64,000 nucleotides of DNA from Thermoanaerobaculia bacterium (lineage in GTDB: Bacteria; Acidobacteriota; Thermoanaerobaculia; Multivoradales; Multivoraceae), in assembly GCA_022826745.1 (NCBI GenBank), contig JAJDUI010000008.1:62001-126000 (forward strand), in the 5' to 3' direction. The notes under the pieces were generated by a model, which did no database searches, was not told the origin of the DNA, and worked only from the letters and a program-made list of their open reading frames with translations. Positions 38,244-44,482 of the stretch are shown here, one piece after another; positions within the stretch are counted from its first letter, which is position 1, and each line of letters starts with the position of its first letter. Both the position numbers and the translations under genes were made by a program.

Positions 38244-38588
38244 ATGCGGACCATGCTCACCCTCGACTCGAAAGAACAGACGTGGCTTGACGGGTACAGG
38301 CAGGCCCTGAAGCGCGAACACGCCGACGCCGTGCTGTGCCTGGTCGTGTACGGCTCCAAGGCGCGCGGCGACTCGCATGACGAGAGCGACCTCGATCTCC
38401 TCCTCATCGTCCAAGACTCCGCCTCCGACATGAAGAAGGCCCTCCGCCGCATCGGCCACGAACTGGCTGCCCCCCTAGTCGTTCTGCCGTCCATCATGGC
38501 CTACACCGAAGGGGAGTGGAACCAGCTCGAGCTCTACCGTTCGGCCTACCATGCCGCTGTTGAGCGCGAAGGCGTCGCGGTACTTTGA
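38244..38588 (+). CDS. MNT-type nucleotidyltransferase domain protein
   Basis: The 114-aa protein has the minimal nucleotidyltransferase motif VYGSKARGDSHDESDLDLLLIV, that is G-S-x-A-R-G-D with the D-x-D metal pair. Such proteins usually act as the antitoxin or AMPylating partner of a HEPN toxin. No HEPN gene is next to it; the following genes encode a small membrane protein, a 97-aa protein and a PIN protein. It opens the accessory island. Confidence 0.8.
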   Translation: MRTMLTLDSKEQTWLDGYRQALKREHADAVLCLVVYGSKARGDSHDESDLDLLLIVQDSASDMKKALRRIGHELAAPLVVLPSIMAYTEGEWNQLELYRSAYHAAVEREGVAVL

Positions 38589-38874: not shown

Positions 38875-39168
38875 ATGGACGTCAAAGAGGCGGTAGGAAG
38901 CGCCAAGCAGTACCTCGGGGAGATCTTCTCCGGTGAGAAGATCACCCACGTCGGTCTCGAAGAGGTCGTCTTCGACGACGCAGAGAACTGCTGGAAGATC
39001 ACTCTGGGGTTCTTTCGCCCATGGGATCTGGGCATGGAGCAGAGTCTTCTGAATCCGCTGTCCCGGATCGACAGACAGTCGCGGCGGACGTACAAGATCG
39101 TGCAGATCGACGACGCCAGCGGCGAAGCCGTGTCGATCACCAACCGTCACCCTTCTACGGCTGCCTGA
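38875..39168 (+). CDS. 97-aa protein of unknown function, PIN partner
   Basis: The sequence is mixed alpha/beta. An N-terminal helix (VKEAVGSAKQYLGEIF) is followed by strands THVGLEEVVFDDAENCWKITL, GFFRPWD, and a final YKIVQIDDASGEAVSITNR. The last segments look like a small single-domain beta-sheet protein and not a DNA-binding antitoxin. The stop is 3 bases before the PIN gene, so the two are coupled. It is a possible antitoxin or cofactor for the PIN nuclease. Confidence 0.55.
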   Translation: MDVKEAVGSAKQYLGEIFSGEKITHVGLEEVVFDDAENCWKITLGFFRPWDLGMEQSLLNPLSRIDRQSRRTYKIVQIDDASGEAVSITNRHPSTAA

Positions 39169-39171
39169 GTC

Positions 39172-39633
39172 GTGCCGGCCACAGCGTTCTTCGTTGACGC
39201 CAATCTGCTCGTGCTCTTCGTGGCCGGCATCGTCGATCAAGCACTGATCGGGAAACACCGGCGACTGCGCGAGTTTTCCGTGGCCGACTACGAGAGGCTA
39301 CGAAGCCTGATCGCAGCTGTAGAGCGGGTTCTGGTAACGCCGAACACACTCACCGAGGCGTCCAATCTGCTCGGGCAGCACGGGGAACCTGAGCGCTCGG
39401 GGCTTCTCGACGGCCTCCGCTACGTCATCGAGGAGAGTCGGGAGATTGTCGTTGCGAGCGCTGAAGCAGCGCGAAGCCCCGTCTTTCGGCGCCTGGGATT
39501 AACCGACGCGGCGTTGTTTGAATCGGCGACGGCCGAGCGGCCGCTACTGACCGTTGACCTCGACCTGTACCTGGCGGTTTGCTCAAGAGATGCGGGAGCG
39601 GTCGAGAACTTCAACTACTCCCGTGATCTGTGA
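39172..39633 (+). CDS. PIN-domain protein, putative ribonuclease
   Basis: The 153-aa protein has the acidic set expected of a PIN nuclease: D in FFVDANLLVLFV, E in TPNTLTEASNLL, D in GLTDAALFE and D in LLTVDLDLYLA. It is larger than most VapC toxins. It starts at GTG, 3 bases after the 97-aa gene. No VapB- or PhD-type antitoxin precedes it; the 97-aa protein would take that place if this is a toxin module. Confidence 0.75.
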   Translation: MPATAFFVDANLLVLFVAGIVDQALIGKHRRLREFSVADYERLRSLIAAVERVLVTPNTLTEASNLLGQHGEPERSGLLDGLRYVIEESREIVVASAEAARSPVFRRLGLTDAALFESATAERPLLTVDLDLYLAVCSRDAGAVENFNYSRDL

Positions 39634-39635
39634 TC

Positions 39636-40137
39636 CAGAGGCCGAATCGTCTCGTTAGGCGCCCGAAGCTCCATCTCGCGGATACGGGCGTTGGCACCGG
39701 CTTATGGGAGAGGTCCGGCCGGCCTGATGGCGGACGAACCTCTGCTCGGGCAGCTACTCGAGACTCATCGTCCCCCTGGAACCCCGGCCTCGGGCCGGCC
39801 GGCACGACACCGCTTTGGGCTTCTTCCACTACTGCGACCGGGACGGTTTCGAGGTCGACATCGTGATCGAGCAGGGGCTGGCCGCCGTGGCGCGCGTCGA
39901 AATCAAGGCCGCCGCCACGGTCAGATCGTCCGACTTACGGGGTCTCCTCAAGCTGCCGAAACGGTAGGCGACCGCATCGCCGGCGGAGTGATCCTCTACG
40001 ACGGTGAACTGACCGCACGCTTCGGAGACCGGCTCCACGCCGTGCCTGTGCGCCGGCTGTGGGAGACGGTGTGGCCCGGGCTTCGCCTGTCGGATCGCCC
40101 CTCGGTCTGGCTGATCCGAACAATGATCTCTAGCTAG
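39636..40137 (+). pseudogene. Remnant of an AAA-type ATPase/DUF4143 protein C-terminus
   Basis: DUF4143 segments occur in order but in different frames: RRPKLHLADTGVGTGL (about 39657), LGQLLETH (about 39745), FFHYCDRDGFEVDIVIEQG then VEIKAAATVRSSDLRGLLKL (39821-39961), and, after a one-base frame change at about 39964, GDRIAGGVILYDGELTARFGDRLHAVPVRRLWE to 40137. The N-terminal ATPase domain is absent. At least three frame breaks make this a decayed gene. Such proteins are usual in islands and act as DNA-linked or toxin-like elements. Confidence 0.7.
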
Positions 40138-40408: not shown

Positions 40409-41065
40409 ATGGAGATACAGGAATACATCGAGCATGTGCTCAGGCGGGCTGAGGATCGGCTCGCCGAACGGCTGAAGGAGGCAGTGGAGGGCCGCCAGTA
40501 CGCCGCTGCGGCTGAACTCGCCTCCGTCACGGAAAAGGTCCGGGACTTGGTTCAGTCCGTGGGCAGCGGGGAGCGAAGCCGCGAACAAGGGACGGCGCTC
40601 TCAGGTAGTGCGGAGCCTCGTGCCCGCCGTACAGCGAAAGCTAGAGCCTCAGCCAGTCCGTCCTTGAGCGCTCCTGAGCGGAGGGCAAACCGGCGATACC
40701 CGAGGTTCGTTCGCTCAGAGGGTCGTTTGGTCAAGGTTGGATGGTCCAAGAAGGACGGAGCGGAGTACGAGCACCGCGCCTCTGAGGTCTCTGTCTGGGC
40801 CGTAGTAGCGGCGCTTCGGGATCTGGAGTCAAGGGAGTTCTCCATGGACCAGTTGATGCCCGTTGATGATGGAGGTGGGACGGAAGTCCCCTCCTATCAG
40901 GTGTACCTGATCGTGGCTTGGCTGCGGTCCCTTGGTGCGGTGCGAAGAGCAGGCCGGGGCGGCTATGTGGCCGTCCCCGACTGCCTGTCTGTTGCCATGA
41001 TGGAAGAACACTGGCGCGCGTTGGAGGGGGATTCAAGCGCGAAGGGAGGAACGAACAGTGAGTGA
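40409..41065 (+). CDS. Unknown protein with helical N-terminus and winged-helix-like C-terminus
   Basis: The protein has 218 aa. Residues 1-50 are a charged amphipathic helix region (YIEHVLRRAEDRLAERLKEA). A variable Arg/Ala/Ser linker follows. A C-terminal globular domain begins RRYPRFVRSEGRLVKVGWSK and continues VWAVVAALRDLESREFSMDQLMPV and YQVYLIVAWLRSLGAVRRAGRGGYVA. The last part has the helix-helix-helix-wing pattern of a winged helix. I do not recognise the family. It overlaps the GHKL ATPase gene by 8 bases and should be its partner. Arginine codons AGA and AGG are frequent, unlike the host genes. Confidence 0.6.
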   Translation: MEIQEYIEHVLRRAEDRLAERLKEAVEGRQYAAAAELASVTEKVRDLVQSVGSGERSREQGTALSGSAEPRARRTAKARASASPSLSAPERRANRRYPRFVRSEGRLVKVGWSKKDGAEYEHRASEVSVWAVVAALRDLESREFSMDQLMPVDDGGGTEVPSYQVYLIVAWLRSLGAVRRAGRGGYVAVPDCLSVAMMEEHWRALEGDSSAKGGTNSE

Positions 41066-43271
41066 CGCGAGAAACCGGGAGTTGGCGCTGAGGCTTCTCC
41101 GGGCTGATTCGGAGGCCGAGGTGGTGGGGATCCTCGAGCAGGAAGGCCTGTGGCGCGACGCCAAGTGCTGGCGGCTCTATGGGGATCGTGACGGGAACTT
41201 CTCGGTGATCGGGAATCAGCAAAGCCGTCCAGAGGCAGCTCTCGTAGAGAAGATCGTCAACTCGGTTGACGCCCGGCTAATGAAGGAGTGCCTCGAACGT
41301 GGCATCGATCCGACTTCTGCGGACGCTCCCCAGTCGGTGCGCGAAGCAGTGGCGAGGTTTGTTGATGGCGTCGAACCGGGTAGCGAAACGGCGGGCGAGG
41401 TTCGATTCTGGCCTCGCCAGACGCAACGGGAGCAAGCTCGGCAGATTACCCTCGCCGTGACTGGCTCGAAGCCACGGCAGGCGGGAGGATCGTCGATAAC
41501 GGTCGTCGACCTGGGAGAGGGCCAGCATCCGGAGAAGATGCCGGAGACCTTCCTGTCGATCGACCGCGAGAACAAGCTGCGCATTCCGTTTGTGCAAGGC
41601 AAGTTCAACATGGGCGGCACCGGTGCACTTAAGTTCTGTGGGCGCAGCGGGCTGCAGTTGGTCATCACTCGGCGATGTCCGGGGATAGTCGAGGCCGATT
41701 GCGAAGCGGAATCACGTTGGGGATTCACCGTCGCTCGGAGAGAACGGCCGGTCGAAGGCGCAGGGGAGATCCGTAACTCGGTCTATCGCTACCTCGCTCC
41801 GGTTGGAGCTGAGGAGAAGCCTGGGCTTGGTGGTGTCCTGCAGTTCTCCGCTGCGGACATCGAAGCCCTTCCAGAGAAGAACGAGGCGTACGCCCGGAGT
41901 CTGTCCTGGGGATCAGTCTTGAAGCTCTACGAGTACGACATGAAAGGGTTTGGCAGCCATGCACTGATGAAGGGCGGGCTCTTGGGCCGCCTCGAGCTGA
42001 TGCTGCCAGGGATAGCGCTTCCGGTGAGAGTCCATGAGTGTCGCTCATTCGGGGGAGATCCGAGAAGGAGCTTCGAGACGACATTGCTCGGCCTCTCGGC
42101 GCGTCTCGAAGCCAATCGGGCTAACAATCTTGAGGAGGGCTTCCCTACGTCAGGTCTGATACAGCTTGCCGACCAGGACCTCCCTGTCGAGATCTACGCG
42201 TTCAAGCCGAAGAGGGCGGACGCGTACCGCTCGACCGAAGGAATCGTGTTCACGATCAACGGCCAGACACACGGGGCGATTTCCAAGGCCTTTTTCTCCC
42301 GGAGGAGAGTGAAGATGGGACGCCTTGCGGACTCCCTGTTGCTAATGGTCGACTGCTCCAGGCTGTCCGTGGATGCTCGAGAAGACCTGTTCATGAACAG
42401 CCGCGATCGGCTTAGCAACGGGGAGCTTCGAAAGGCGATCGAGAGTGAGATGGAGGAGCTCGTCGGTCGCCATCACGGTCTTAGAGAGCTACGCGACCGC
42501 CGTAGGGCGGAGGAGATCGCGCAAAGACTCGAGGACTCGAAGCCGTTGGAGGACGTACTCGATACGCTCCTGCGGTCATCTCCTAGCTTCGTCCTGCACG
42601 ATGGGGTGGCCAACTGGAGTATCCTCCTTCCGGAGGGCCTAGAAGTTGGTGATGAAGTGACGCTGCAGTGCACAGTTGCAGATGACTCGCTGATAGACCC
42701 CTTCGTGAACTTGGTCGAGATCTCTATCGTGCCGAAGGGACAGAGAAAGTCCGGGAAGAGGACTAGGCGCGAGCGTCGACTGGACTTTGGCGATGCGACC
42801 GATGGAAGCGGTCAGGGTGGCAAGGGACATGACAGTGAGGCAGGGATCCGACTTCCCCACATTGAGACCCTTAGAGAGAGGGACCCGAGATGGAGCGAGA
42901 GGGGATTCGACCACTACACCGGGTGCGAAGTGGTCGACGATTCGGACGTCGAAAAGGCGGCCAACGGGAGAGACCTGACCTTCTACGTGAACATGTCGAA
43001 TCGGGCTTTGGAGACGGATCTGAAAGACAGTCGCGAGGACGCGAGGGTCGTTGAGGCGAAGTTCGTGTATGCAAACGTGCTCGTAGGTCTCGGACTTCTG
43101 AATGACCCTCGGCAGGATGGAGACGACGCGGCGGAATCCATGGACACGGCCGAGACGCGTGTGGCTTCTACGACAAGGGCTCTGGCGCCCCTTCTGCTTC
43201 CCATGATCGACTTCCTCGGATCACTGGGTCCTGAAGACGTTTCGGCAGGGGGCGTCGGCGACGAGGACTAA
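41058..43271 (+). CDS. GHKL-fold ATPase, MORC/MutL/HSP90-like
   Basis: The 737-aa protein has all GHKL motifs: N-box E64-K-I-V-N68-S-V-D71-A, G1 D151-L-G-E-G155 and G2 G181-KFNMGGTGALKF. A transducer-like region follows (FTINGQTHGAISKAFFSRRRVKMGRLADSLLL; LFMNSRDRLSNGE). The C-terminus (VNMSNRALETDL; EAKFVYANVLVGLGLL) is unrecognised. No kinase histidine or response-regulator gene is nearby, so it is not a sensor kinase. GTG is set by GGGAGGA 7 bases upstream. Proteins of this type occur with methyltransferases in restriction-like systems. It converges on a DNA methyltransferase with a 4-base stop overlap. Composition is less GC-rich and AGA/AGG codons are common, so it was probably acquired. 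Confidence 0.8.
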   Translation: MSDARNRELALRLLRADSEAEVVGILEQEGLWRDAKCWRLYGDRDGNFSVIGNQQSRPEAALVEKIVNSVDARLMKECLERGIDPTSADAPQSVREAVARFVDGVEPGSETAGEVRFWPRQTQREQARQITLAVTGSKPRQAGGSSITVVDLGEGQHPEKMPETFLSIDRENKLRIPFVQGKFNMGGTGALKFCGRSGLQLVITRRCPGIVEADCEAESRWGFTVARRERPVEGAGEIRNSVYRYLAPVGAEEKPGLGGVLQFSAADIEALPEKNEAYARSLSWGSVLKLYEYDMKGFGSHALMKGGLLGRLELMLPGIALPVRVHECRSFGGDPRRSFETTLLGLSARLEANRANNLEEGFPTSGLIQLADQDLPVEIYAFKPKRADAYRSTEGIVFTINGQTHGAISKAFFSRRRVKMGRLADSLLLMVDCSRLSVDAREDLFMNSRDRLSNGELRKAIESEMEELVGRHHGLRELRDRRRAEEIAQRLEDSKPLEDVLDTLLRSSPSFVLHDGVANWSILLPEGLEVGDEVTLQCTVADDSLIDPFVNLVEISIVPKGQRKSGKRTRRERRLDFGDATDGSGQGGKGHDSEAGIRLPHIETLRERDPRWSERGFDHYTGCEVVDDSDVEKAANGRDLTFYVNMSNRALETDLKDSREDARVVEAKFVYANVLVGLGLLNDPRQDGDDAAESMDTAETRVASTTRALAPLLLPMIDFLGSLGPEDVSAGGVGDED

Positions 43272-44417
43272 CGCGCCAAGTGGACCAGAACGACCTCGCG
43301 TGCTGCTGGTGCCGTAGAGCGCTGCGAGGCGTGCCATCGGCGCCTGGGCACCTCGCGCCAGATTCGCCCGGCTTCGGGCAGCGGTGCTTCGATGAAGCCG
43401 GCGGTTCGGAGGGTCTCTAGGTAGAGTCCCAATTGCACGTCGGGATCGGAGAAGCCCACGACTTGGACCAGTGTGGCGCCGCCGCGCATGACTCGACGTA
43501 CGGCCGACATTCTCTCGCCGAGCAACTTGAAGTAGTTGCGGCTTTGTCGGCCTCCCATCGTGTAGTAAGACTCGCCACGCCCGTCGTTGGCCGCTGCGAT
43601 CCAGAAAGGAGCGGGAGTCTCTTTACCGCCGCCCGTTTGCCAGCGATGATAGAGAACGTGGACTCCAGGGTATGGGGGGCTCGTCACGACAAGATCGGCA
43701 CGGCTTCCATTCGCGAATGGTCGGACCGAACCGATGTTGACCGCGTCCGAGGTGACGAGGTGAGACTCGTGAGCGCCAGGGGTCTCCGCTTTCTCCCAGA
43801 GTGACGCCAGGTCCTCCAACATCGTGTGGATGACTGTGTGCAGCCGTTCGCGGAAAGCAACCGCTCGAGCAACTTGTCGGCGTCCATCTATGGCCCACTG
43901 CGCTGCGTTCAAGATAGCCCCGCGGGCGACTCGCTCCACCGTCGGGTCGTCGTCGTTCGGGATGCTGGAGAGAGCGACGCCTATGAGCTTGCGAATGGCT
44001 CGGCGAGCTGGTCCGGTGAGGTTCCGGGCGGTCTCCGGCGACGGCTGATTCGCGTCGCTAATGGCGTCGTGGTAGCGGATGTTCCTGACGGTGTCCTCAG
44101 CCCATGTGTTCAACACCCGTGCCGCGCGCGGCGAGACTCGCGACGTCTTTAGCTTGGCGAGAAGTGGCAAGTTCGCTGATGTCCAGACAAGCCGTACTTC
44201 GACCCATCGCGATCGCTTCGACCGCGGTCGTACCGCCCCCGGAGAACGGATCCAACACCAGCTGTCCCGGTCGGGAGAAGTGGCGGATGGCCGCGTTGGC
44301 AAGCTGAGGCGAGAATCGACCGGGGTAGCGATAGAATTCGTGGGTCAGGCCGGCTACGGGACTTGGATCCAGAGCTGCTCTACGAAGAGCCTCGAACTCA
44401 GTGAAACGAGAAGACAT
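43268..44417 (-). pseudogene. DNA methyltransferase (adenine-N6 or cytosine-N4 type), frameshifted
   Basis: The first 84 codons (ATG 44417 down to 44166) read HEFYRYPGRFSPQLANAAI and LDPFSGGGTTAVEAIAMGR then LDISELA, which are motifs X and I and the SAM acid loop. The next segment, LLAKLKTSRVSP, is in another frame, entered by skipping one base at about 44165. It runs to 43268 with motif IV TSPPYPGVHVLYHRW. Joined, they make a normal protein of about 382 aa (order X-I-IV). The break is not in a homopolymer, so phase variation is unlikely; it is either a real mutation or a sequence error. No target-recognition domain or restriction nuclease is seen nearby. Confidence 0.8.
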
Positions 44418-44482
44418 GACCACTACCGCTCACGAGCGGTCGAGGATGGTGAGTAGCTCGGCGGGTCCAAGGCGGCATGCTT

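Follow-up and report, generated by a model that had tools for sequence, protein, structure and literature searches.

If a winged-helix protein, a GHKL-type ATPase and a DNA methyltransferase are encoded side by side in a bacterial genome, do they constitute a defence system, and if so, is it one that has already been described? The question is raised by positions 40,409 to 44,417 of a 64,000-nucleotide stretch (hereafter, the window) of contig JAJDUI010000008.1 from a Thermoanaerobaculia bacterium (GenBank assembly GCA_022826745.1), for which an original prediction, made from the sequence alone, had proposed a candidate defence system composed of these three genes. Comparative analyses indicate that the three-gene cassette of partner, ATPase and methyltransferase is widespread and apparently undescribed, and that the window locus is rather likely to be a decaying copy of a defence cassette that is mobile and depends on DNA modification.

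Recurrence of the cassette

A scan that took in 84,980 species genomes confirmed 426 relatives of the ATPase across bacteria and archaea. The best 80 of these 426 were analysed, with their neighbouring genes clustered using a simple home-made open reading frame caller and few of the clusters annotated. The methyltransferase family accompanies the ATPase in 43 loci, and lies directly downstream and convergent in 38 of them, mostly within 25 bp; in the other five it is just upstream (two loci), overlapping on the same strand (one) or a few genes away (two). These 43 loci span at least 11 named phyla, with the proviso that single assignments may be wrong because many are metagenome bins. On the other side of the ATPase, a small same-strand gene is present within 300 bp upstream in 40/43 loci. 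At least seven unrelated families are represented among these upstream genes: the winged-helix type of the window (14 loci), a longer type with a ribbon-helix-helix (RHH)-like start (seven), an 87-aa type (six), Mrr_N (four), and PIN, HTH_17 and other types. Such exchangeable families are what would be expected of a specificity subunit. Intact three-gene cassettes are carried, for example, by the cultured bacteria Aeoliella straminimaris ICT_H6.2 (L025, which has the partner type of the window) and Sphingopyxis flava R11H (L055). No helicase or nuclease cluster common to the methyltransferase loci stood out, although diverse nucleases could escape this clustering. As a separate observation, the PIN-domain genes in the upstream position (L034, L082 and L092) are toxin-like.

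Distribution within the phylum is patchy: at E <= 0.001 the ATPase was detected in 9/297 genomes, two of them marginal, and in the genus it is present in the window and in one congener (G006), i.e. in 2 of 21 genomes. Strong matches to the methyltransferase family in the same 297 genomes were found in G077 (two copies), G123 and the window genome (G000), all adjoining the ATPase, and the next match, at 56 bits, is confined to motif I. Additionally, ATPase and methyltransferase distances are correlated over 40 loci (Mantel r 0.54, p 0.0005), and in a tree of 82 ATPases the methyltransferase-linked members fall mostly into one clade, with 5 changes vs 27.6 in shuffles (0/500). By these sequence comparisons, the link between ATPase and methyltransferase exceeds chance neighbourhood, and functional coupling or joint transfer would both fit it. 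The window ATPase is placed in a seven-row set of the tree with Verrucomicrobia, Planctomycetota, Gemmatimonadota and another Acidobacteriota, and its distance from the G006 copy points to independent acquisition of the two copies.

The ATPase and its partner

The ATPase gene begins with a GTG codon preceded by a good ribosome-binding site, and overlaps the partner gene on the same strand by 8 bp, so that the two-gene overlap originally described is present. The complete N, G1 and G2 boxes reported for the 737-aa product are likewise all there; in the numbering of a complete relative, L020, they are E64/N68/D71 (N box), D150-x-G-x-G with G152 and G154 (G1) and G180/G185 (G2), and all of these residues are invariant across the relatives.

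Structure prediction of each protein separately had been suggested as a check, and it was carried out for the ATPase on L020 rather than on the window copy. The AlphaFold2 model of L020 (predicted local distance difference test score, pLDDT, 86.5) has a GHKL plus transducer fold, and in structure searches its residues 43-484 match Hsp90/TRAP1 (Z up to 16.6), Morc3 (Z 15.3, 298 residues, 3.7 Å) and GyrB. The Z scores of the Hsp90, GyrB and Morc3 matches are about 15-16.6. By its boxes and by this model, the ATPase is a member of the GHKL superfamily, with a predicted Bergerat fold followed by a transducer domain. Past residue 484 the model continues with an immunoglobulin-like (Ig-like) domain and then a C-terminal domain with long helices, a part that was barely probed by the structure search. 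The conserved residues of the C-terminal part include P712, W724, N757, D759 and N760, and no PD-(D/E)xK, HNH or HxH nuclease pattern was found among them. Querying solved structures with the ATPase sequence gave nothing useful.

When the L020 model was compared with viral structures, several phage rIIA proteins were seen to have a GHKL-type fold like that of this ATPase. A viral origin was rejected: tblastn against 50,697 phage records gave no match, viral contigs gave none either, and matches in BFVD were to generic GHKL proteins (phage rIIA, topoisomerases).

The 218-aa partner was modelled as two helices, a linker and a winged helix (pLDDT 83), and its structure-search matches are the wing helix of DpnI (Z 8.1) and the helix-turn-helix (HTH) of Fur and CAP. 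The winged helix first noticed in the sequence is thus borne out by model and searches alike, and the partner is likely to be the DNA-recognition subunit.

Neither the partner nor the ATPase of the window had a match in Pfam, NCBIfam, PADLOC or PHROGs, and their relatives gave marginal or sub-threshold profile matches only. Profiles of PADLOC systems (Mza, Hma, BREX, DISARM, Druantia and others) did not match the ATPase, the partner or two relatives. Similarly, no nuclease match was obtained for either protein in Pfam, PADLOC or the PDB, and no cognate restriction endonuclease was recognised in the partner, the ATPase or their relatives by profile searches, although a nuclease fold of a new type may exist.

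The methyltransferase and the state of the window copy

The methyltransferase family matches N6_N4_Mtase (Pfam) and MTase_II (PADLOC), and thus belongs to the amino class (N4-cytosine or N6-adenine); we take its SPPY motif to favour N4-cytosine slightly. The two upstream genes had been predicted to converge on a DNA methyltransferase. A convergent methyltransferase is indeed present, but its reading frame is broken: relatives have the gene uninterrupted, and in the window it is split over two frames by a small indel near 44160-44175, a position taken from the translated frames. The ATPase is affected as well. In comparison to L020 and L023, the two closest relatives compared, it lacks 106 residues (L020 511-616), a segment that the first alignment also shows in its other complete relatives; by the L020 model, this in-frame gap takes out about half of the Ig-like beta-sandwich domain. 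Because the methyltransferase is frameshifted and the ATPase is short of these residues, the window copy is probably decaying, and it is probably not functional, although the frameshift could be an assembly error. As a post hoc remark, damage to both genes would fit an addiction-like relation, in which the effector would have to fail before or together with the marker.

The chromosomal site

The genes flanking the insert, a pair of FAD oxidase genes and an aldehyde dehydrogenase gene, are conserved in 18 congeners, mostly as whole genes. In seven congeners the first oxidase lies 1.1-1.2 kb from the dehydrogenase, vs 7.5 kb in the window, and the site is empty, with the second oxidase alone between the two. 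Other congeners carry named anti-phage systems there: Druantia type I genes in G007 (DruE1, 1898 bits, and DruA1), Bunzi in G009 (BnzA and BnzB) and PDC-S01 in G019. Therefore, the site between the glcE-like and aldehyde dehydrogenase genes (L132, L133 and L135) is an anti-phage hotspot of the genus. Elsewhere in the phylum, a copy of the cassette in G077 adjoins the Shango genes SngA and SngB. Joint recurrence near defence genes had been proposed as a further check, and the cassette was found to recur as a unit, with named anti-phage systems at its site or adjoining. The homologues show no fixed housekeeping setting, their distribution being patchy and the congener sites empty or defence-filled; a housekeeping or mismatch-repair role is ruled out by this patchiness and by the empty sites. 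Argued from the site, a defence role would be guilt by association, though strong for one locus.

The composition of the locus agrees with what was noted at the outset. The GC content of its genes is 60-64%, vs 71% in the flanking genes, and AGA plus AGG make up 22-33% of arginine codons, vs 4% in the flanking genes. Between the flanking housekeeping genes no helicase or nuclease was seen, also as stated. The features of the insert are listed in Table 1. An intact relative of the DUF4143-type ATPase gene occupies the same site in L135.

Table 1. Features of the inserted segment, in positions of the window.
Feature	Position	Strand	Description	Evidence
Inserted segment	38148..44482	.	Between glcE-like and aldehyde dehydrogenase genes	Congener site empty or with other defence systems
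MNT-like nucleotidyltransferase	38244-38588			PADLOC PDC-S09 match
Two-gene unit	38875-39633		PIN-like toxin with partner, by eye	No Pfam match
DUF4143-type ATPase gene	about 39691-40137		Apparent frameshifted remnant	Judged by eye
Partner gene, 218 aa	40409..41065	+	Helix pair, disordered linker, winged-helix domain	17 relatives, model, structure search
GHKL ATPase, 737 aa	41058..43271	+	GHKL and S5-type transducer, truncated Ig-like domain, C-terminal alpha/beta-helical domain	Alignments, model of relative L020
Junction of 106-residue in-frame gap in ATPase	approx. 42582..42587	+		Comparison with L020 and L023
Methyltransferase, C-terminal fragment	43268..44175	-	Other frame, motif IV (SPPY; SPPYPGVHVLYHRW); convergent with ATPase	4-bp overlap
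Methyltransferase, N-terminal fragment	44097..44423	-	Motif I (DPFSGGGTT), ATG at 44417	N6_N4_Mtase, E 4.7e-12

Other modification genes beside the ATPase family

Distant ATPases without this methyltransferase adjoin ssp phosphorothioation genes in four loci (L010, L011, L012 and L101; region 7282-14370 in L010), and two of the ssp-linked loci also have a further GHKL protein, which carries a histidine kinase annotation and resembles REase_II profiles of PADLOC, as in L010. It is possible that the ssp-linked GHKL family, or this second protein, is an unrecognised restriction partner of Ssp. That the ssp-linked homologues are SspFGH was ruled out, since SspFGH is not GHKL: SspF contains Walker A, and SspH resembles FtsK (PMC8092258). 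Additionally, a D12 methylase is convergent with the ATPase in L067 (12376-13203) and lies two genes downstream of it in L072, DndB-family genes adjoin the ATPase in L073 (4054-5196) and L088 (8570-9658), and a C5 methylase is near it in L015. These neighbours are few cases, and they suggest that the ATPase family may have been coupled to several kinds of self-mark.

Proposed function and alternatives

The cassette probably marks the cell's own DNA and attacks unmarked foreign DNA, since it is sited where relatives keep anti-phage systems; it is from this context that we infer defence. In intact copies, the methyltransferase would mark a sequence in the host genome. The winged-helix partner, or in other copies an HTH, RHH or Mrr_N protein, would read DNA and load the ATPase, which would dimerise on ATP as MORC, GyrB and Hsp90 do and close as a clamp on unmarked DNA. 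Having no nuclease of its own, the clamp might then block replication or transcription, or recruit a host nuclease. What the comparisons establish is the gene content, its recurrence, the pairing of ATPase with methyltransferase, the fold and the hotspot; self-marking, clamping on DNA and the fate of the phage are inferred. By analogy with MORC and GyrB-type proteins, from which the clamp idea is borrowed, the ATPase probably acts as a DNA clamp that is gated by ATP and held back by methylation; MORC-1 of C. elegans reportedly entraps and condenses DNA (PMC8277788). A bolder version, which we hold only tentatively, is nuclease-free restriction, in which a MORC/Hsp90-like clamp with a swappable DNA-reading subunit would trap unmarked DNA, the ATPase family being paired with amino methylation, Dam-like methylation or phosphorothioation according to lineage.

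Several points weigh against a modification-dependent defence cassette. Among the 82 sampled family members, 39 have no methyltransferase of this type nearby, so the ATPase can act in its absence, or together with genes encoded elsewhere. The copy in the window is itself damaged. No effector nuclease was found by the profile and structure searches, so the step that would harm foreign DNA is a guess. Furthermore, a role in regulation or plasmid exclusion would also be consistent with the linkage and the hotspot.

The strongest competitor is classical restriction-modification, in which the ATPase or an unlinked host nuclease would cut unmethylated DNA, the C-terminal or Ig-like region hiding a nuclease. 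The pairing with a methyltransferase and the hotspot location would be expected of such a system, the second GHKL protein in L010 has its REase_II likeness, and the VcSduA Shedu protein joins a GHKL domain to a nuclease (PMC12137116). However, neither the Pfam, PADLOC and PDB searches nor the conserved C-terminal residues gave any sign of a nuclease, and we regard this explanation as unlikely. Less probable still is an epigenetic regulatory unit, in which methyltransferase, DNA-binding protein and chromatin-like ATPase would control the expression or compaction of the carrying element rather than serve defence. Tyrosine recombinases are near 11 loci, the partner proteins resemble transcription regulators and the ATPase has a MORC/Hsp90-like fold, all of which suit such a unit, whereas the patchy distribution, the site held in common with named anti-phage systems and the Ssp, Shango or DndB neighbours do not. 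That the window locus is a dead remnant only, with a gene set uninformative about a working system here, is very improbable: the frameshifted methyltransferase, the 106-aa gap in the ATPase and the apparent broken DUF4143 remnant adjoining them would agree with it, but the frames of ATPase and partner are open, the ATP-binding motifs are intact, intact sister cassettes are common and the frameshift could lie in the assembly.

If a degenerating, modification-dependent defence cassette is the correct reading, then a common unnamed cassette defends bacteria without a helicase or nuclease. It would offer a compact system for the study of GHKL clamp action on foreign DNA, with a bearing on DNA silencing by eukaryotic MORC proteins, and a candidate for the restriction partner of some among the numerous ssp loci that lack a known one.

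Comparison with known systems

Searches of PADLOC, NCBIfam, Pfam and open-access papers turned up no identical named system, in agreement with the original prediction that the gene set matched none known. In the same open-access literature, GHKL proteins are unmentioned in reviews of phosphorothioate, BREX and YprA systems. A GHKL ATPase in a modification-based system had been foreseen, but the papers searched yielded no description of this gene set.

As in type II restriction-modification, an amino-type methyltransferase is present, though frameshifted in the window, and no cognate endonuclease was recognised. BREX, which appears to be nuclease-free (PMC9122589), likewise has self marked by a methylase, but the cassette is without PglZ, PglX and BrxC and has three small genes vs six. 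In the proposed model, the cassette would also resemble SspABCD-SspFGH (PMC8092258), where self carries a modification and DNA lacking the mark is harmed by another module; it differs in having a GHKL ATPase, which neither SspF nor SspH is, no ssp genes, and base methylation rather than phosphorothioation. The HEF_HK / Response_reg_2 system with a C5 methylase (PMC8011034) similarly combines a GHKL protein, a DNA methylase and a small partner, but the window ATPase and partner have no HATPase_c, HEF_HK or Response_reg_2 match in Pfam, with searches run to E 0.1 or 1, and the methyltransferase is N6/N4, not C5. VcSduA (PMC12137116) shares with the cassette a GHKL ATPase serving phage defence, whereas the window ATPase is without DUF4263 or a PD-(D/E)xK nuclease and has an Ig-like and helical tail and a methyltransferase partner.

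Also close are the MORC and paraMORC GHKL ATPases. For these, a role in restriction-modification operons was predicted by Iyer et al. (2008; PMC2292703), usually beside helicases and nucleases; a minority of the neighbourhoods are without helicases. The prokaryotic MORC motif of the S5 domain, GhXhhpXXRhl as defined there, is found in 0/75 sequences. The paraMORC1 family is described as having a distinct conserved C-terminal extension and as co-occurring with MORC or HNH genes (PMC2292703). The ExxxH of paraMORC2 is not conserved, any ExxxH in that region occurring in 9/75; the C-terminal PD-(D/E)xK (DUF4263) of paraMORC3 and GHKL-Shedu has no Pfam match and no conserved motif; the C-terminal TIR domain of paraMORC4 has no Pfam TIR match; and for the conserved HxH of paraMORC5 there is no conserved histidine in the C-terminal part of the ATPase. 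Overall, the cassette resembles MORC and paraMORC1-5 in its GHKL plus S5 module, its patchy and mobile occurrence and its link to DNA methylases, and differs from them in that, without a helicase, nuclease or TIR tail, it has a convergent methyltransferase and an exchangeable upstream DNA-binding partner.

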